53,014 bases of DNA from Bacilli bacterium (GTDB lineage Bacteria; Bacillota_I; Bacilli_A; RF39; UBA660). Below the pieces are notes generated by a model. The model was given only the letters and a program-made list of their open reading frames with translations, had not been told where the DNA came from and did not search any database. The translations under genes and the position numbers were made by a program. Where the stretch lies: the NCBI GenBank assembly GCA_017477845.1, contig JAFUTR010000057.1, forward strand, positions 1 through 53,014. Reading direction: 5' to 3'. Numbering within the stretch: position 1 is the stretch's first letter; the number at the start of each line of letters is the position of its first letter. Positions 2,005-22,743 of this stretch are shown here, in pieces.

Positions 2005-3543
2005 ATGAAAAGAAATTTGCTAATAATATTTTTATTTTTCATTCTTTTCAGTGCATTAAAAGTAAATGCATTGGAAAGAAGATTTGCAAGTAGTGAGTAT
2101 CTTGATGATATTTTTTATTACAAGTACGATGGGAAAATTTATCATTTTAAGTATGGAAAAGTAATCAGAGATATAGAGTCTAATGAAGTAGCATACTGTA
2201 TTCAGCCGTTTGATGATTTAGTTGATAATACAGCTTATAAAGAAAGCATTAGTTATAATGAATCATTCGGAATCAGTGAAGAAAATTGGGAAAAAATAAA
2301 ATTATTATCATACTATGGATATGGATATGAAAATCATACTGATAAAAAATGGATATCAATAACTCAAATGGTAATTTGGAGAACTTTATATCCATCATTG
2401 AAGTTTGAATGGATTAATAATCTTTCAGATAGAACTGTTATTAATCCATATAATAAAGAAATTAATGAGCTTAATGAATTAGTAGAAAATCATTATACAT
2501 TACCAAACTTTATAGATGAAAATGAAGAAATTATTTTAGGACTTGATGAAATAGTATTTGTTCATGATAGAAATAATGTGCTAAAAAACTATAAAATAGT
2601 GAAAAGTGATTTTAATTCTTCAATAGAGGAAGACCATTTAAGAATTGGGCCAGAAAATAAAGAAAAAGAAGGGATAATAGTATTAGAAAGAGCATCATCA
2701 AAATATTCACAAAATGTTATGTATTTTTATCACAGTTCCAGTCAAAACGTTATAAAAACTGGAAATATTGAACCTGTAAGATATACTTTACATGTTAGAG
2801 TAAAAGGTGGAACAATAACAATTACAAAAGTAGATAAAGAAACAAAAGAAACAAAAGCCCAAGGAAATGCTTGCCTTGATGGGACTGTATATAATTTATT
2901 TGATGATAATGATAATTTTATAGATGAAAAATTTATCGAAAATGGTACTTTAACATTTGATAATTTACGATTTGGTAAATATTATATTGTTGAAAAATAT
3001 GCTGGAATTGGGTACTTGGTAGATGATGAAAAACATTTCGTTGAAATTAATATGGATAATTTTGATGAGAATATAACATTGGAAGATCAAGTTATAAAAA
3101 GTAAAATAAAAATTATCAAGAAATATGGTACTAAGGAAGAATACGAAAATAATGAGATGAAAAATGAACAAGGCATATCATTCGAAATATATGATGACTT
3201 TAATGAAATGATCAAAACTGTTACAACTGATGAAAATGGAGAAATAAATCTAATTCTACCTTATGGAAACTATCTATTAAAACAAATTACAACAACTGAA
3301 GGATATGAAAAAGATGAAGATAAAATAATAGAAGTTGATGGTTCAAATGAATACATAGAAATGATTCTAAATGATTTAAAAATTGAAGAGCCACCAAAAG
3401 AAGAACCACCAAAAGAAGAACCACCAAAAGAAGAACCACCAAAAGAAGAACCACCGGTTCCTATAAAAGTGGAAGTGCCAAATGCTTCTTTTACATTTAT
3501 TAGATTAATTGCTAGACTTATTTGGAGCATCTTACATGTTTAA
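2005..3543 (+). CDS. Surface adhesin with thioester domain and SpaA-like domains
   Basis: Predicted cell-surface protein of 512 residues. Residues 1-22 are a signal peptide. A thioester (TQXA-type) domain follows: Cys65 in AYCIQPF and Gln121 in ITQMVIW are placed as the Cys-Gln pair that forms an internal thioester able to react with host or surface amines. Two SpaA-like beta-sandwich domains follow, at about 270-350 (Lys in ITKVDKE, Glu in YIVEKY, expected isopeptide partners) and about 355-450. Then comes a stalk of PPKEE repeats and a C-terminal VPNAS motif before a hydrophobic end. VPNAS may be the sorting motif for the sortase encoded next, whose gene overlaps by 8 bases. The hydrophobic tail carries two Arg inside it and no basic end, unlike usual LPXTG tails. 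AGGAGGG precedes the ATG. Confidence 0.8.
   Translation: MKRNLLIIFLFFILFSALKVNALERRFASSEYLDDIFYYKYDGKIYHFKYGKVIRDIESNEVAYCIQPFDDLVDNTAYKESISYNESFGISEENWEKIKLLSYYGYGYENHTDKKWISITQMVIWRTLYPSLKFEWINNLSDRTVINPYNKEINELNELVENHYTLPNFIDENEEIILGLDEIVFVHDRNNVLKNYKIVKSDFNSSIEEDHLRIGPENKEKEGIIVLERASSKYSQNVMYFYHSSSQNVIKTGNIEPVRYTLHVRVKGGTITITKVDKETKETKAQGNACLDGTVYNLFDDNDNFIDEKFIENGTLTFDNLRFGKYYIVEKYAGIGYLVDDEKHFVEINMDNFDENITLEDQVIKSKIKIIKKYGTKEEYENNEMKNEQGISFEIYDDFNEMIKTVTTDENGEINLILPYGNYLLKQITTTEGYEKDEDKIIEVDGSNEYIEMILNDLKIEEPPKEEPPKEEPPKEEPPKEEPPVPIKVEVPNASFTFIRLIARLIWSILHV
3391..3450 (+). repeat. 15-bp coding tandem repeat (PPKEE stalk)
   Basis: Four identical CCACCAAAAGAAGAA units, in frame, encode PPKEE. 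Copy-number change would alter stalk length by five residues per unit without a frameshift. Confidence 0.9.
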
Positions 3544-4867: not shown

Positions 4868-5041
4868 TGATATCAATTTCCTTCCAAATAGTAGAATAAT
4901 ATTTTGTAAATTCACTAGAATTCCTGTTCTCAAGTGGAGTTTTTTTGTCTTTATAGGTAATTAAGTGAATGCTTTTAATTTTAGCAGGTCTTTTAGCAAA
5001 AACATATATTTTATCAGAAATACTAATAGCTTCACCTAAGT
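4857..5041 (-). pseudogene. ABC ATPase, C-terminal part (split by Element 1)
   Basis: On the minus strand this reads LGEAISISDKIYVFAKRPAK and ends KYYSTIWKEIDINDE before a TGA at 4859-4857. That is the usual C-terminal end of a nitrate/sulfonate-type ABC ATPase, which follows the H-loop histidine. The N-terminal part lies at 7928-8507. Joining the two across one copy of the 12-bp repeat gives 753 nt, a whole number of codons, encoding 250 residues, the normal family length. There is no start codon here, so this is a stranded fragment. Confidence 0.85.
5030..5041. repeat. Element 1 left attachment core
   Basis: CTTCACCTAAGT, identical to 7928-7939. In the ATPase reading direction it is ACTTAGGTGAAG, lying in codons for DLGEA. 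Confidence 0.85.
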
Positions 5042-5082
5042 TCTATTATGCAAAAAAAATAATAAAATATAATGGTGAAAAA

Positions 5083-6018
5083 ATGACTGGTATTTATGTT
5101 AGAGTTTCGACTGATGAACAAGTGTTACACGGATTTTCAATAAGGGCACAGATAGAAAAATTATCTGATTATTGTAAGATAAAAGATTGGAAAATATTTG
5201 ATATATATCAAGATGAAGGAATAAGTGGAAAAAATATTAAAGATAGAAAAGAATTAATAAGATTACTTAATGATGTAAAGGAAAAAAAAATAACAAATGT
5301 CTTAGTGTATAAAATAGATAGACTAACGAGATCAACAAAAGATTTAATTGAATTAGTTGATATGTTCAATAAATATAATTGTGCTTTTAATTCATTAACA
5401 GAATCAATAGATACATTATCTCCAACAGGAAGAATGTTTATTAAAATAATAGGTATTTTTGCTGAGTTTGAACGAGAAAGTATTGTTGAAAGAGTAAAAT
5501 TTGGACTTGAAAGAAAGGTTAAAGAAGGTTATACAATAGCAAGTAAAAATATTAGTTATGGATATAATAAAAACAGAGGTGAAAAAATCCAAACCATAAA
5601 TGAATTCGAAAAATATATTGTAAGAAAAATATTTCACTTATTCCTAGATGGGTATACATACACAAAAATAGCAAAATATTTAAACAAATACAATGTAAAA
5701 ACAAAAAACAATAAAAATTGGAATTCTAAAAATATTAAAATAATATTAACAAATCCAAACTATGTAGGGAGAGTAAGATATGGAGTAAATAAAAAAAATT
5801 ATTTTGAAATCGATGGAAAACACAAAAGTATAATTGAAAATGAAATATTTAATAAAGTTAATAATATTATAAAAAAAGATAATACTATAACATGCGAATG
5901 TGGCTACAAAATGATAAAAAGAACAAAAAAGTATTATTCAATAAAAAAAAGAAAAATAATCAAATATATTACATTACATTGCACGGCATGTAACAAGACA
6001 GTAAAATATAAAATGTAA
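5083..6018 (+). CDS. Serine recombinase of Element 1
   Basis: Site-specific DNA recombinase of 311 residues that is predicted to integrate and excise Element 1. The resolvase catalytic domain begins GIYVRVSTDEQ with nucleophile Ser9, then YQDEGISGKN, YKIDRLTRS and FAEFERESIVERV. A recombinase domain follows (ISYGYNKNRGE to NPNYVGRVRYG), then a zinc ribbon with CECGY and HCTAC. It is short for the large-serine-recombinase group because little follows the zinc ribbon (no long coiled coil). The start is ATG at 5083 with GGTG at 5074-5077; the longer open frame to 4969 reads antisense through the ATPase fragment and across the left junction, so it is not used. Confidence 0.9.
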   Translation: MTGIYVRVSTDEQVLHGFSIRAQIEKLSDYCKIKDWKIFDIYQDEGISGKNIKDRKELIRLLNDVKEKKITNVLVYKIDRLTRSTKDLIELVDMFNKYNCAFNSLTESIDTLSPTGRMFIKIIGIFAEFERESIVERVKFGLERKVKEGYTIASKNISYGYNKNRGEKIQTINEFEKYIVRKIFHLFLDGYTYTKIAKYLNKYNVKTKNNKNWNSKNIKIILTNPNYVGRVRYGVNKKNYFEIDGKHKSIIENEIFNKVNNIIKKDNTITCECGYKMIKRTKKYYSIKKRKIIKYITLHCTACNKTVKYKM

Positions 6019-9099: not shown

Positions 9100-9198
9100 A
9101 TAAAAATATATTTTGATGAAAATAAAGAACAATTAAAAAAAATAATAGACAAATATATAAAAAATATTAATAGAAATATTAGTGATGAAAATGAATAA
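9100..9198 (+). CDS. Possible small protein ahead of the recombinase
   Basis: A 32-codon frame, Lys/Asp/Asn-rich and helical (KIYFDENKEQLKKIIDKYI), ends at TAA 9196-9198 and overlaps the recombinase start at 9191. AGGTGA at 9089-9094 is well placed for an ATA start at 9100, a rare initiator; an in-frame GTG at 9091 lies inside that ribosome-binding site. Its overlap would couple translation of the recombinase, which lacks a clear ribosome-binding site of its own. It could also be just a leader peptide. Confidence 0.4.
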   Translation: MKIYFDENKEQLKKIIDKYIKNINRNISDENE

Positions 9199-10426
9199 TA
9201 GATACTTGGTTGGTGCATACATAAGGCTTTCAAAAGAAGATAAAAACTTAAATAATAAAGATAGCGAAAGTATAAAAAACCAAAAAGAAATAATTAGAAA
9301 ATATATAGAAGAAAATAACTACAAGTTAATTGAAGAATTTGTAGATGACGGGTATACTGGATCAAACTTTAATAGACCTGGATTTATAAGAATGATTGAA
9401 AAAATAAAAAATAAAGAAATAAACATGGTAATAGTAAAAGACTTATCAAGACTAGGAAGAAATAATATTGAAACTAATGAATATATTGATAGATTCTTCC
9501 CAAAATACAAAGTAAGATTTATTTCGATTTTAGATAATGTCGATACAGAAATAGATTCCATAGGGAATGAAATGATACCATTTAAAGTATTAATGAATGA
9601 ATACTATAATAGAATAACTTCCAAAAGTATAAGAGCCAGCCTAAAGAGTAAAAAACAAAATGGATTATTTCTAGGATGGAAAGCTCCTTTTGGATATAAG
9701 AAAGATAAGAAAGATAAAAATAGAATAGTAATAGATAAAAAAGCAGCAAATATCGTAAAAGAAATATATAGACTTAGAGAAAATGGTTATAGCACCATTG
9801 AAATAAAAAACATTTTAGATGATAAAAAAATACCAACACCAAGTGTTTATTCAAACATGAAAAATAAAACTTTAAAATGGTCACAATTTACAATTAATGA
9901 AATATTAAAAAATGAAACATATATAGGAAATCTCATTCAAGGAAAAAGAAAGAAAATATTTGGACTTAAAAGTGAAATAAAAAATCCTAAAGAAAATTGG
10001 ATAATAGTTAATAATACGCATAAACCAATAGTATCAAAAGAAACATTTAATTATGTAAACAGCATCAAGAAAAAGATTACTAATAAATGTAGCAATTTTT
10101 ACTTATTAAAAAAAATGATGAGATGTAAAGAATGTGGATATAGTATAGGAGTAATAAAAAATAAAAAAAGAAAACAAATGTACACCTCTTGTACTAATTA
10201 TCAAAAGAATAGTAAAAAGTGTTTTCCTCATTGTATGAATTATTATAAGTTTGAAGAAATAATTATTGATACAATAAAAACAATTCTTAAAGATAATCTG
10301 GATAATAATAAATATGAAATCATCATTAACAATGGGATAAAACGAGAACTTCTTCTTTTATTAATAGATAAAATAATAATAGATAAAGATAAAAACATTG
10401 AAATATACTTTAGTTTTAAGTTATAA
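9191..10426 (+). CDS. Large serine recombinase of Element 2
   Basis: Site-specific recombinase of 411 residues, TndX/TnpX-like, predicted to move Element 2. Catalytic domain: GAYIRLSKEDKN with nucleophile Ser14, DDGYTGSNFNRPGF, VKDLSRLGRN and MNEYYNRITSKSIRASL. Recombinase domain: APFGYKKDKKDK to NETYIGNLIQGK. A zinc ribbon follows, MMRCKECGYS with a later SCTNY, then a helical C-terminus. Three near starts exist (GTG 9182, ATG 9185, ATG 9191); none has a good ribosome-binding site, and the overlap with the small upstream frame suggests coupling. It is clearly different from the Element 1 enzyme. Confidence 0.9.
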   Translation: MNNRYLVGAYIRLSKEDKNLNNKDSESIKNQKEIIRKYIEENNYKLIEEFVDDGYTGSNFNRPGFIRMIEKIKNKEINMVIVKDLSRLGRNNIETNEYIDRFFPKYKVRFISILDNVDTEIDSIGNEMIPFKVLMNEYYNRITSKSIRASLKSKKQNGLFLGWKAPFGYKKDKKDKNRIVIDKKAANIVKEIYRLRENGYSTIEIKNILDDKKIPTPSVYSNMKNKTLKWSQFTINEILKNETYIGNLIQGKRKKIFGLKSEIKNPKENWIIVNNTHKPIVSKETFNYVNSIKKKITNKCSNFYLLKKMMRCKECGYSIGVIKNKKRKQMYTSCTNYQKNSKKCFPHCMNYYKFEEIIIDTIKTILKDNLDNNKYEIIINNGIKRELLLLLIDKIIIDKDKNIEIYFSFKL

Positions 10427-17854: not shown

Positions 17855-17882
17855 AAATCCTTGATTTGTCAAGGATTTTTAT
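17855..17882 (+). terminator. Second hairpin terminator before the Rpn gene
   Basis: AAATCCTTGA-TTTG-TCAAGGATTT, a perfect 10-bp stem followed by TTATAT. It separates the agmatine operon from the nuclease gene. Confidence 0.75.
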
Positions 17883-17913
17883 ATGTGTTAAGGTGTATCT
17901 GGAGGTGTTAAAA

Positions 17914-18789
17914 ATAAAATTTTTAGAACTATCTAGCGATGTAGTTTTCAAATCATTTATGTTAAGTTCTAATACAGTAAAATATAAAGCAAGACTAATT
18001 CATTTGATTACAAAAATAAATGAAGAAGATTTAAAAAGAGCTACTTACACAAGTCAAGAATTAAGAGTATCTAATAAACAAGATAAAGTCTATAAAACAG
18101 ATATAATAGTAACTGTAAAAGATCATATAATATCACTTGAGATGAATAAAAATTATTATAAAGGATTAAATGAAAAAAATGAGATGTATAGAGCTAAAAT
18201 AATGAGTGATGAGTTAGATAAAGGAGAAGATTATCTAGATTTAAAAGGAGTAATACAAATAAATATAAATGATTTTCATTCATGTAAAGGCAAAAGAATA
18301 GTATATGAATTTATGAATATAGAAAAATATAGTAAAGAAGTAAAAAGCGAGTTTTATAAAAATTATGATGTAGACTTGAAAAATGTAGATGAAATAGATT
18401 ATAATAAAAGTGAAATTAACAAGATGTTAATGATATTTAAAGATTGTGACTATGAAAAATTAAGGGGAGATGAGATAATGGATGAAGCACTTGATGAGTT
18501 AGAAAGAATAAGTAGTGATACAAAGATAATAGGACTATATGACAAAGAGAAAGTAGAGAAAAAGATACTCAATACAAGATTAAGATATGCTGAAGAAACG
18601 GGACTAGAAAAAGGTTTAGAAAAAGGACTAAAAAAAGGACTAAAAAAAGGACTAAAAGAAGGACTAAAAGAAGGACTAAAAAATGGCAAAAGAGGCATCG
18701 CTAGAAAAATGTTAAAAGCAAATATGTCCATTGAAGATATAATAAGATTCACTGGATTAACTCATAAAGAACTAGAAAAACTTAAATAG
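17914..18789 (+). CDS. Rpn-family recombination-promoting nuclease / PD-(D/E)XK transposase-like
   Basis: About 291 residues. The N-terminal PD-(D/E)XK nuclease domain shows ELSSDVVFKSFML, TDIIVTV and IISLEMNKNYYK, the variant D...ExN/K core of this family. The C-terminus has seven GLxKG-type tetrapeptide repeats and a small helical domain (MLKANMSIEDIIRFTGLT), also usual for the family. The start is unclear: GGAGG at 17901-17905 is ideally spaced for ATA at 17914, while canonical GTG codons at 17893 and 17905 lie before or inside that site. Such genes spread within mobile DNA; a role in Element 2 is not shown. Confidence 0.8.
   Translation: MKFLELSSDVVFKSFMLSSNTVKYKARLIHLITKINEEDLKRATYTSQELRVSNKQDKVYKTDIIVTVKDHIISLEMNKNYYKGLNEKNEMYRAKIMSDELDKGEDYLDLKGVIQININDFHSCKGKRIVYEFMNIEKYSKEVKSEFYKNYDVDLKNVDEIDYNKSEINKMLMIFKDCDYEKLRGDEIMDEALDELERISSDTKIIGLYDKEKVEKKILNTRLRYAEETGLEKGLEKGLKKGLKKGLKEGLKEGLKNGKRGIARKMLKANMSIEDIIRFTGLTHKELEKLK
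18601..18684 (+). repeat. 12-bp coding tandem repeat (GLxK/GLxE)
   Basis: Seven imperfect GGACTAAAAAAA-like units in frame. Slippage here changes length by four residues. Confidence 0.9.
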
Positions 18790-18880: not shown

Positions 18881-20254
18881 ATGAAGAATAAGAAAAATTT
18901 AATTTTAGTTTTAGGAATTATACTTCTAGGAGTGGGAGGAACACTTGCATATTTCACAAGTACTGGAGTATTTAATAATATTTTTAACACAGGAACTTAC
19001 AGTACTAGATTTCATGAAGAGTTTACAAGCCCCTCTAACTGGATGCCAGGAGATGAGACACCAAAGACAATTACAGTAACAAATGATGGTGATATACCAG
19101 CTCATGTAAGAGTGTGTTTAACTGACTCTTGGCTTGCAGCTGATGGGACAACAGAACTTCCTAATCACGATGATACAAACAATATCGATATAGCAATAGT
19201 TAATGCTGATAACACAGATGAGTGGACAAAGAGTGGGAACTGTTACTACTATAATGAAGAGTTAGCACCAAATGAAACAACAAGTAGTCCAATTAAAAGT
19301 GTAACGTTTAATCCTTCCTACGAAGGAAGTGTGGAGTGCACTACTGAACAAGCAACTGGAGACTTAGTTTGCACATCAACTGATACAGGATATGACGGAG
19401 CAACATACACATTAACACTAACTGGTGAAACAATTCAAAGTGAAGGACTAGGAGAGTGGGGAATAGGATACTCAATAGATGGAACTAATTACTCACTACC
19501 TGACTCAGGAAGCGCTCAAACAACATCTGGATACAACACATTCTTAAGAAGTAATCTAACAAGCACTGGAACATCAAAAGAAGTAGGATTTGTATATAAC
19601 AATACAACTTACTATGTAGGTGAAAGTAACAGTTATGAAGAGAATAAAGATATACTAGATGAAGCCTTTGGAGTTAGTAACTGTAGTGCGGTATCAGGAT
19701 CTGGCGGACATTCTGCCCTATATTCAGGCTTTACAGGATACCATTGTTCATGTGAAGAGTTTGACGTAGACTTAGATACAACTGGTAATATTTCTATAAC
19801 ACATTATAAGACAAATGGAAACTTTACATGTGACTTATATGTAGATGATTATGAAGCCTGTTATGAATTTAAAGGAGGATATTCTGCAACAGGAAGTGAT
19901 CGTTATGAAACAGCAATAGAAGCAATGGAAGCAGAGGGACACTTGAATTATTTAAGATATCAAGTAAATGGAAAGAATGTAACTAGCTCTGTAGGATTCA
20001 AATTAAATAACCAAGAATACTATTTAATTGGAGGAGATGAAGGAGCAAGTTACTCTACAAACAAAACGACCCTTGAAAGTGCCTTTGGATCAAGTAATTG
20101 TACTGATAATAACGGCTCTTACGAATGTACTAATGAAACATTTGAAGCAGGGGCATATAATGATGGATATGTGTCTGCACAAGAGCGCGCGAGCGACTGG
20201 GGATGTTACGTGAGTGCATTTGGCGATTCTGAGTGCCTCGAGGGGATAGCTTGA
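18881..20254 (+). CDS. DGR variable protein: secreted Cys-rich surface protein
   Basis: Protein of 457 residues. The N-terminal membrane segment ILGIILLGVGGTLAYFTSTG and following NIFNTGTY resemble SipW-dependent TasA/camelysin-type secreted proteins. A TasA-like beta domain follows (ETPKTITVTNDGDIPAHVR). Two related Cys-rich modules come next, each starting with VGF...YY and containing an AFGxSNC motif. The second ends in the variable segment DWGCYVSAFGDSEC encoded by VR. It is not recognisable as the C-type-lectin fold common in DGR targets. Base composition is richer in GC than the surroundings, most strongly in VR. The protein ends EGIA because VR has lost 17 nt relative to TR. Confidence 0.85.
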   Translation: MKNKKNLILVLGIILLGVGGTLAYFTSTGVFNNIFNTGTYSTRFHEEFTSPSNWMPGDETPKTITVTNDGDIPAHVRVCLTDSWLAADGTTELPNHDDTNNIDIAIVNADNTDEWTKSGNCYYYNEELAPNETTSSPIKSVTFNPSYEGSVECTTEQATGDLVCTSTDTGYDGATYTLTLTGETIQSEGLGEWGIGYSIDGTNYSLPDSGSAQTTSGYNTFLRSNLTSTGTSKEVGFVYNNTTYYVGESNSYEENKDILDEAFGVSNCSAVSGSGGHSALYSGFTGYHCSCEEFDVDLDTTGNISITHYKTNGNFTCDLYVDDYEACYEFKGGYSATGSDRYETAIEAMEAEGHLNYLRYQVNGKNVTSSVGFKLNNQEYYLIGGDEGASYSTNKTTLESAFGSSNCTDNNGSYECTNETFEAGAYNDGYVSAQERASDWGCYVSAFGDSECLEGIA

Positions 20255-20288
20255 GTAGCTAGCGCCGCCTGTTGTGGCTGTCGCGCTA
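20185..20288 (+). repeat. DGR variable repeat (VR)
   Basis: 104 nt matching the template repeat at 20474-20594. Outside a 17-nt gap, all nine clear substitutions fall at TR adenines (A to C, G, G, T, C, G, G, C, T in order), and four more A-to-G changes are seen at the gap edge. The 3' part from TAGCTTGAGTAG on is identical to TR and acts as the likely initiation-of-homing region. Confidence 0.93.
20260..20288 (+). promoter_or_regulatory. GC-rich hairpin at the VR 3' end
   Basis: TAGCGC and GCGCTA pair around an inner GCC/GGC stem. DGRs often need a hairpin or cruciform just downstream of VR for efficient retrohoming. The same sequence recurs at the TR end (20566-20594). Confidence 0.65.
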
Positions 20289-20473
20289 TCTTAAATCTTG
20301 AATCTATTTTGCGAAGCAAAATATTATTGCGCCGAACAAGGTGTAGGCGCATATTAGAAATGATATAAACATTATATATGTAAAAAATACATTATTGATT
20401 ATGTTTATATAGGGATATTCTGATTTGTTTTTTGGCTACTTTTTGCTATTTTTCCAGTTTCTTATTTCTAGCG
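20289..20473. other. Spacer between VR and TR with three inverted repeats
   Basis: No gene is seen. Inverted repeats: ATTTTGC-GAA-GCAAAAT (20306-20322); TGCGCC with GGCGCA (20328-20351); ATATAAACAT (20363-20372) with ATGTTTATAT (20401-20410). They may serve as terminator or as structure for the TR transcript. Confidence 0.6.
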
Positions 20474-20594
20474 GCGCGCGAGCGAATGGAAATGTAACGT
20501 GAGTGAATTTGGCAATTCTGAATGCAACGAACCTGAAAATGAAAATAAAAAATAGCTTGAGTAGCTAGCGCCGCCTGTTGTGGCTGTCGCGCTA
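20474..20594 (+). repeat. DGR template repeat (TR)
   Basis: 121 nt, non-coding in its own place. Read in the VR frame it encodes RASEWKCNVSEFGNSECNE, then PENENKK and a TAG stop. The mutable codons are GAA, AAA, AAC and AAT. It lies between the target gene and avd, on the same strand, the standard DGR order. It contains 17 nt that VR lacks. Confidence 0.93.
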
Positions 20595-20615
20595 GATTTA
20601 AATGGTACTTGTCTA

Positions 20616-20693
20616 ATGGATTTATCTATTAAAAGAAGACATTTAACAAGAATATTCCTTGTAGCAAAACTACAAAAAATATGCAATAAATGA
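20616..20693 (+). other. Tiny open frame between TR and avd
   Basis: A 25-codon frame (MDLSIKRRHLTRIFLVAKLQ...) with no ribosome-binding site; probably part of the non-coding TR transcript rather than a gene. Confidence 0.2.
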
Positions 20694-20773
20694 AAATAAA
20701 GATTAGTAGATATTTTGAAACTCTTTATATTCTATATTTATTGCTTTTTTATTGATAAAAAAAGGAGTAAACA

Positions 20774-21151
20774 ATGGAAAAAAATAAACTTGATTTATTA
20801 TATCAAAAATATAAAATACATGATAACTTAATAATTTCACGTACTGCCAGAAAAACAATTAGATATATAGAAAAAAATACAATTAATTTTCCAAATAACT
20901 ATAAAGTTTTAAAAGATAAGATTATAACTTCATCATATAACATACTTGAATATATCTATAGAGCTAATATATTTCAAAGTATAGATGATAAAAAAGAAAT
21001 AATAGTACAAATACAAATGCTTAACTTTTATCTAGAAGAAGCATATAGAAAAAATATTATAAATGAAAAAAAATTATTAAGTTACACGGAACATCTTTTT
21101 CAAATCGATAAAATGGTAAGAGCATGGTTTAATTATGAAAAGGAAAAATAA
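20774..21151 (+). CDS. avd: DGR accessory variability determinant
   Basis: All-helical protein of 125 residues, consistent with the four-helix Avd family (related to 23S rRNA intervening-sequence proteins) that forms a pentameric barrel binding the reverse transcriptase and TR RNA. Visible: YQKYKIHDNLIISRTARKT and the C-terminal HLFQIDKMVRAWFNY. AAAGGAG precedes the ATG. It overlaps the reverse transcriptase by 17 nt, as expected of a co-translated pair. Confidence 0.88.
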   Translation: MEKNKLDLLYQKYKIHDNLIISRTARKTIRYIEKNTINFPNNYKVLKDKIITSSYNILEYIYRANIFQSIDDKKEIIVQIQMLNFYLEEAYRKNIINEKKLLSYTEHLFQIDKMVRAWFNYEKEK

Positions 21152-22277
21152 TATTTATCCATATATTATAGATATAAATAACATTATAGAAATTACTAAT
21201 CATGTTATTAAAAAATGCAAAAACAAAAAGAAAGTTGACTTCTTTGAATCATATAAAATGGAACACATATATAACATAAAGATGCGCCTAAAAGAAAAGA
21301 ATACGAAATTTTCAAAATATAATATATTTATGATTACAGATCCAAAATGTAGGATAATAATGGCTCAAAAACTTGAAGATAAAATAATAAATCATCTTAT
21401 TGCAAAATATGCACTAGTAAATGTATTTGATAAAACTTATACAATCTCAATGATTGCTACAAGAAAAAATATGGGGACATCATTTGGAATAAAATTACTA
21501 AAAAAATATATAAACAAAATAAAAAAGAAACATAAGAATTTTTATGTATTAAAAATAGATATAAAAAAATACTTTTATAATATTGATCATGAAGTACTAA
21601 AAAATATTTTAAAAAAACATTTGAAAGATAAAACAATACTTGACTATTTAAACTCAATAATTGATTCAACAAATGAAAAATATATAAATGAAGAAATAAT
21701 TAATCTTAAGAAAAATAGAATTAAATATTTAGAAAGTACTAATTTAAATAACAAAAGAAAACTAATTGAGGAAGTAGAAAATATTCCACTTTATAAATAT
21801 GGAAAAGGAGTAGCACTAGGTAATCTTACTTCTCAAGCATTTGGATTAATTTATTTAAATGAAATAAATCATTTTATAAAAGAAAAACTAAGAATAAAAT
21901 ATTTAATAAATTATATGGATGACTTTGTTATTATTCATCATGATAAAGAGTATTTAAAATACTCGTTAAATGAAATAACAACAAAATTAAAAACTGAATT
22001 TAAATTAGATGTTAATGATAAAAAAACAAGAATTGATAATATAAAAAATGGGATTGATTTTCTTGGATATAAATTTTATTTAAAAAATAATAGATTAATA
22101 TTAAAAGTTAGAAATAAAACTAAAAAGAAATTTAAGAAAAAGACTAAACACTTAAAGTTATTATTAGAAAATGATTATATTAATACAAGAGAATATAAAC
22201 AATTACTCGCATCATATAAAGGAATAATGATTAATGGAAGTGCTAAGAGTTTATATTGTAAGTATTTTTATAACTGA
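21135..22277 (+). CDS. DGR reverse transcriptase
   Basis: Reverse transcriptase of 380 residues that copies TR RNA with errors opposite adenine. The DGR-type domain-4 motif is GVALGNLTSQAFGLIYLNE and the catalytic motif is LINYMDDFVII. KIDIKKYFYNIDHE is the first aspartate motif, and KNGIDFLGYKFYL is the usual motif after the active site. All key residues are present, so it is likely active. It ends 25 bp before the right junction of Element 2. Confidence 0.95.
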   Translation: MKRKNNIYPYIIDINNIIEITNHVIKKCKNKKKVDFFESYKMEHIYNIKMRLKEKNTKFSKYNIFMITDPKCRIIMAQKLEDKIINHLIAKYALVNVFDKTYTISMIATRKNMGTSFGIKLLKKYINKIKKKHKNFYVLKIDIKKYFYNIDHEVLKNILKKHLKDKTILDYLNSIIDSTNEKYINEEIINLKKNRIKYLESTNLNNKRKLIEEVENIPLYKYGKGVALGNLTSQAFGLIYLNEINHFIKEKLRIKYLINYMDDFVIIHHDKEYLKYSLNEITTKLKTEFKLDVNDKKTRIDNIKNGIDFLGYKFYLKNNRLILKVRNKTKKKFKKKTKHLKLLLENDYINTREYKQLLASYKGIMINGSAKSLYCKYFYN

Positions 22278-22301
22278 TTGTTTATCCCTTTGTAATACGC
22301 T

Positions 22302-22306
22302 CACCT
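22302..22306. repeat. Element 2 right junction core
   Basis: CACCT shared with 9046-9050. The inner flank carries the partner of the imperfect inverted repeat described for Element 2. Confidence 0.6.
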
Positions 22307-22743
22307 TTTCGCCCTCCGATAACATACTTACCTTTTAAATCTTCTAACTTGAAATTATCTATTTTTTCTCTTGAAACAAGAAAACTTCCATCTTTTTGCG
22401 TTAACTGCGCAAAAGTTTTTAAATAATTCTCTTCACGTCCATTATAAACATAGATAGTTGCTTCTATTCCTGATAGACCAATATCAACATCATTTGAAAG
22501 TAGTGCTGCAACAACTTTATCAGCTCCACTTGCAAGAGTTAGATCAATATCAAGACCAACATCCTCAAAATAACCATTGTTTATAGCAGCATATTGTGGA
22601 GCATAAAAAACACTGTGAGCAACTTCTGCAACCTTAACTTTTGTTAATTTTTTATTCTCTACATTTTTTGACTCATATAAAGTCATTAAACAAATAACAA
22701 ATATAAAAATAACACCTATTGTAGTAATTATTTTCTTTCTCAT
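22302..22743 (-). pseudogene. ABC substrate-binding protein, N-terminal part (split by Element 2)
   Basis: About 147 host residues, then a few codons of Element 2 to a stop at 22282. A membrane/signal segment (TIGVIFIFVICLMTLYE) has no lipobox Cys. Then comes VKVAEVAHSVFYAPQYAAIN, NGYFEDVGLDIDL and LEDLKGKYVIGGRKG, typical of NMT1/THI5- or SsuA-like binding proteins for small sulfur, nitrogen or vitamin-precursor compounds. GGAAGG precedes the ATG at 22743. The second lobe lies at 8504-9050. Confidence 0.88.

Follow-up and report, generated by a model that had tools for sequence, protein, structure and literature searches.

A chromosomal diversity-generating retroelement likely targeting the C-terminal domain of a BsaA/TasA-type matrix protein in a gut bacterium of the Bacilli

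The DNA stretch analysed here (53,014 nucleotides of a Bacilli bacterium contig; hereafter, the window) comes from a gut bacterium and carries a complete diversity-generating retroelement (DGR) with A-specific changes in its variable repeat. As a DGR it is ordinary and belongs to a known kind; the unusual part is its target. Most probably (we put the probability at roughly 0.86), this is a chromosomal DGR which, by retrohoming of the BPP-1 type, diversifies the beta-rich domain at the C-terminus of a secreted matrix protein of the BsaA/TasA type.

Organization of the DGR cassette

The cassette (18881-22277) lies entirely on the forward strand, in the order target, variable repeat (VR), template repeat (TR), avd and reverse transcriptase (RT). 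The target gene (18881-20254, 457 aa) encodes a BsaA-family N-terminus followed by a duplicated cysteine domain whose second copy is variable. A program search for repeats together with alignment placed the VR (104 nt) at 20185-20288 and the TR (121 nt) at 20474-20594. The TR is followed by a structured spacer RNA (20598-20744) and by avd (20774-21151, 125 aa), which overlaps the start of the RT gene (21135-22277, 380 aa). A sequence-only reading had proposed the target, VR, TR, avd and RT in this order on one strand, and each of them proved to be in place; it had missed the spacer RNA, a stem-loop after the VR, the identity of the target and its paralogues.

The RT is an open frame with the YMDD catalytic motif (21912-21923, read from the sequence) and GNLTSQ (SQ in motif 4). 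The same two motifs had been noted before, and an inactive enzyme had been named as a sign against a DGR; the frame is intact. It matches RVT_1 of Pfam (49.2 bits) and PHROG 1423 (E 1e-78); among PDB sequences, the closest to it are those of the set 8ub7-8ube, named "Reverse transcriptase" (E 4.5e-19), which we take to be the BPP-1 DGR enzyme. With E 1e-11, the Avd is assigned to PHROG 3206, "Avd protein of DGR", and stays below the stricter cut-offs of Pfam bAvd (37.1 bits, cut-off 40) and NF033474 (34.7, cut-off 80). A small ORF homologous to avd precedes the RT in all nine nearest relatives. The nearest RT relatives belong to MAGs of Bacilli, Erysipelotrichaceae and Tenericutes, several of them rumen-derived, and six near relatives have the target-VR-TR-avd-RT arrangement on one strand. 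RT relatives were found in 52 of 145 genomes of the host's bacterial family, with at most three per genome, and chromosomal DGRs appear to be frequent in this lineage of small genomes. In one relative (L123), a frame change interrupts the RT (441-1573), so either that DGR or its assembly is broken. The host genome contains a second RT (contig C37, 33189-33890; a 666-aa open frame, RVT_1 138.9 bits), perhaps that of a group II intron.

Changes between TR and VR are confined to adenines

The ungapped program alignment of VR 20185-20241 with TR 20474-20530 (57 columns) contains nine differences, all at TR adenines. Within these 57 columns, 9 of the 18 TR adenines and none of the 39 other TR bases are changed (hypergeometric P = 5.4e-6). 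The nine adenine-directed substitutions counted earlier by eye were thus reproduced for the ungapped part, and similar numbers of substitutions at non-A sites, which had been named as the contrary outcome, did not appear (0 non-A). When the roles were swapped and the VR was taken as a template, 0/9 differences fell on A, which fixes the direction as TR to VR. The length difference between the repeats is due to a 17-nt gap within an A-rich stretch of the TR, flanked by four additional A-to-G differences; with this part included, 104 columns contain 13 changes at A and none elsewhere (P = 3e-9), although the gap can be placed in more than one way. Together with the intact RT, these A-only differences bear out the claim that the DGR is complete and its VR changes are A-specific.

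None of the 76 non-A columns differs between VR and TR, which supports recent activity of the DGR. The "active" retrohoming of the sequence-only reading therefore stands as recent activity, which is as far as the support reaches. The 17-nt gap puts the stop of the target in a frame different from that of the TR and, taken with the short TR, could mean that the TR was altered after the last homing event.

The last 43 nt are identical between the VR (20246-20288) and the TR (20552-20594), and this VR 3′ end is IMH-like. Within 16 nt of this segment (20247-20262), there are stops in all three frames (TAG, TGA, TAG), so that the protein is still terminated when the A-rich part changes in length; the VR and the paralogues end at different stops of this set. 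Both repeats are islands of high G+C content (VR 59%, TR 46%) in a window of 26.5% G+C.

Spacer RNA and stem-loop

The spacer RNA following the TR and the stem-loop following the VR complete the cassette, and both are common to the relatives. When the spacer was aligned with those of five relatives, a common fold of 42 pairs was obtained with 94% of the cells paired. Among the six sequences, 17 of the 42 pairs changed on both sides, compared to 3-5 when the partners were slid by 1-3 columns; the window's own spacer has compensatory changes in the first stem. Full-length matches to Rfam RT-14 (RF02921), always 3′ of the TR, were found in the window and in four relatives (L117, L119, L124 and L116), with scores of 28.0, 25.1, 34.8, 43.8 and 30.2 bits for the five loci, all below the gathering cut-off of 48.1. 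RT-14 may itself be a DGR spacer RNA, as the matches, sub-gathering as they are, cover its full length in the same place. The BPP-1 spacer serves to recruit RT-Avd and to prime cDNA synthesis (PMC12875486).

The stem-loop TATTTTGC-GAA-GCAAAATA (20305-20323, forward strand) begins 16 nt 3′ of the VR. A stem-loop after the VR is present in 7/7 loci, and in the six relatives it lies 14-65 nt past the detected VR end. A search for it 3′ of the TR did not find it; two relatives have unrelated A/T-rich stems in the spacer. A hairpin/cruciform is required for homing in BPP-1 (PMC3240598). A GC-rich hairpin inside the VR and TR (~20260-20288) was rejected, and the stem-loop at 20305-20323 is preferred, because this hairpin exceeded shuffled sequences only slightly (z −1.4 and −2.1).

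The target is a BsaA-family protein

The N-terminal 187 residues of the target belong to TIGR04090, the BsaA family of SipW-dependent biofilm matrix proteins (103.8 bits, cut-off 60); a SipW-type signal (TIGR04088, 32.0 bits, cut-off 19) and Pfam PF12389 (26.3 bits, cut-off 22.5) are matched as well. The signal and the BsaA/TasA-like fibre domain together span 18893-19441. Above cut-off, the host genome has eight genes for SipW-like signal peptidases; several more TIGR04090 genes are also present. In Clostridium perfringens, BsaA is exported in a SipW-dependent manner and forms filaments (PMC7395162). Judging from family membership, the target would form extracellular polymers displayed at the cell surface.

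The variable domain looks like an undescribed beta-sheet domain

The cysteine domain that carries the VR comprises 108 aa (19928-20251) and was delimited by two alignments and AlphaFold2. Pfam gave no match to it, even with the threshold relaxed to E 10. Among the nine loci with the nearest RTs, the target could be read in six, and in all of these the same domain carries the VR behind varied N-termini, one of them a prepilin. The domain profile finds 17 of 141 genomes of the host's bacterial family; among 296 genomes sampled across the class, all those matched are members of that family. The domain is not confined to DGRs, since for some of the genomes that carry it no near RT turned up.

AlphaFold2 predicts a beta3-alpha-beta6 arrangement both for the window domain (pLDDT 91.1, pTM 0.84) and for that of the relative L117, which is 29% identical to it (pLDDT 89.8, pTM 0.85); the two models are not fully independent, since both were built on the same seven sequences. 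In L117, the Asn and Glu codons that the TR can mutate fall inside strands at every second residue (83/85, 92/94/96, 102/104, 109/111 and 119/121). In the model, this alternation would fit the variation of one face of the sheet.

No C-lectin was among the Foldseek or VIA matches listed for the two models. Searches of PDB and BFVD structures gave no match better than E 0.1, with the N-terminal half of the domain scarcely covered, and PDB sequences searched with the domain profile gave chance matches only. The best VIA matches listed (Z 4.9-5.2, rmsd 2.5-3.8, 53-86 residues) included polo-box, CPAP G-box, mucin D domain and phage spike, all too weak to name a fold. Judging from the models, the VR domain is likely not a C-lectin and looks like an undescribed beta-sheet domain.

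In a survey of more than 30,000 DGRs, the annotated VRs were systematically of the C-type lectin kind, and the unannotated ones were guessed to be lectin variants (Roux et al., 2021, PMC8144416); the tentaclins are C-lectins as well (PMC10743442). Against this background of annotated VRs, the window domain is a candidate non-lectin scaffold. More distant DGRs of the same bacterial family have C-lectin-type (DUF6273-like) targets, with related RTs (~43-48% identical) and A-only TR/VR pairs. Their VR domains have ends of the (G)VRP/ARP type and weak DUF6273 matches, and profile comparison (hhalign) of the window domain with them gave 0.1%, so that related RTs serve two VR domains without a visible relationship. 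On balance, we lean towards the view that a second scaffold, not of the lectin kind, serves DGRs of the host's family: a beta-meander rich in disulphides, randomised on one face of its sheet and mounted on biofilm-matrix proteins or pilins.

Paralogues of the target

About ten loci related to the target are present in the genome, many of them at contig ends. Four of them (on contigs C58, C29, C17 and C26) have retained a comparable G+C-rich segment on the 3′ side, and those on C58 and C26 have the stem-loop as well. Compared with the present TR, the four alignable paralogues have differences at A and at other bases in the proportions 7/8, 7/9, 11/12 and 9/18, and thus differ at 8-18 of the 39 non-A TR sites; since the A bias is absent, these four were rejected as current remote VRs. 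A similar mix was seen in the relative G111. In five of the six near relatives, the TR/VR pairs themselves have 14-28 changes at A vs. 0-2 others, and one is mixed (23/10).

Upstream (5′) of the present TR, paralogue residues vary at the positions where the TRs of the relatives have Asn codons (mean pairwise difference 0.71 vs. 0.175; exact P = 0.0011, with the positions taken from the TRs of those relatives). Most simply read, the paralogues originate from VRs that belonged to a longer, ancestral TR; the scattered copies look like older, drifted VRs rather than current targets.

Proposed mechanism and alternative readings

By analogy with BPP-1, an RNA spanning the TR and the structured spacer would be bound by RT and Avd and copied to cDNA, with random bases inserted opposite the template adenines. 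The cDNA would then take the place of the VR, with the identical 43-nt 3′ segment and the stem-loop beyond it as guides. The rewritten C-terminal domain, presumably displayed on fibres, would offer ever-changing binding surfaces to the surroundings of the cell; the most likely role of the variation would be in adhesion or in evading recognition.

A defence (DRT) or group II intron function of the RT, with repeats that are incidental, would find support in generic RT matches in PADLOC and TIGR04416, but the NCBIfam scores are far below cut-off, PHROG 1423 and PDB 8ub7 fit better, and Avd, TR/VR and spacer RNA are all present; the A-only TR/VR pair already refutes it, and we give it practically no credence. 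A more serious alternative, yet still doubtful, is that the DGR worked recently and is now decaying, with the TR shortened, an A-rich tail gained and the VR no longer rewritten. The variable part of the TR spans the last third of the domain, while the TRs of the relatives match over 150-160 nt; the paralogues vary at positions of the longer ancestral TR, as the above P-value indicates; and, in the A-rich part, the TR exceeds the VR and every alignable paralogue in length. However, all coding parts are open, compensatory changes keep the spacer RNA stems in the window's own lineage, and the VR has not accumulated any non-A change.

The paralogues suggest two further readings. One DGR might have many live targets, the paralogues being remote VRs rewritten by the same TR; the number of related loci, the G+C-rich segment kept in four and the stem-loop in two of them, and residues varying at DGR-type positions would agree with this, but against the present TR the paralogues are changed at non-A sites no less often than at A sites, and their 3′ segments have drifted, which makes this reading very improbable. 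The paralogues might instead serve as a reservoir from which older variants pass by recombination into the DGR-linked gene, gene conversion and mutagenesis then acting together. Such a reservoir would fit protein identities of 75-80% over long stretches and the assembly breaks found in many copies, but no recombination tract was demonstrated and the breaks only indicate repeats; we consider it improbable.

Comparison with known systems

Just as the BPP-1 DGR, that of the window combines A-only VR/TR changes, Avd, RT, a structured spacer after the TR and a stem-loop after the VR. The 8-bp stem, 16 nt from the VR, compares with published stems of 7-10 bp at 4-34 nt (PMC3240598); unlike that of BPP-1, it is A/T-rich with a 3-nt loop. 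The BPP-1 element resides in a Bordetella phage and the one described here in a chromosome; its TR and spacer precede avd, whereas in BPP-1 they lie between avd and the RT. The target is not Mtd, and its VR domain, as modelled, has no C-lectin among the matches listed.

The Treponema denticola DGR (PMC4891356) is likewise chromosomal, with secreted surface targets, several of them related and scattered in the genome. Its remote VRs still have mostly A changes and reside in C-lectin (FGE-sulfatase) domains (PMC4891356), whereas the paralogues described here have drifted and the domain is different. With BsaA/TasA-type matrix proteins the target shares the SipW-dependent signal and the fibre domain (TIGR04090), and it differs from them by the extra variable C-terminal domain. 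In the literature searched, we found no link of such matrix proteins to DGRs.

If the VR fold is indeed a non-lectin one, the mutator does not depend on the C-lectin scaffold, and the domain would provide a compact cysteine-rich sheet for directed evolution. If DGR diversification is tied to biofilm-matrix proteins, adhesion could be varied and recognition by phages or host immunity avoided.

Genomic setting

The setting of the DGR is chromosomal. Its neighbours in the window include genes of housekeeping type (PcrA/UvrD, DNA ligase) and transporters, and no phage genes were found among those scanned. A phage origin was rejected: neither a near RT nor the target domain is encoded by any viral contig searched, and phage records gave, among the matches listed, RTs less than 35% identical and no target.

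Directly 5′ of the target is a gene resembling Rpn-family nucleases/transposases (17866-18789; TIGR01784 40.9 bits, below cut-off), with tandem KKGLKKGLKEG repeats. On the other side, an NMT1/THI5-like binding protein on the reverse strand (22282-22743) comprises 153 aa only and is probably truncated. Farther away, a thioester-domain/SpaA surface protein lies near two large serine recombinases (2005-3543, 4969-6018 and 9182-10426 for the three genes).
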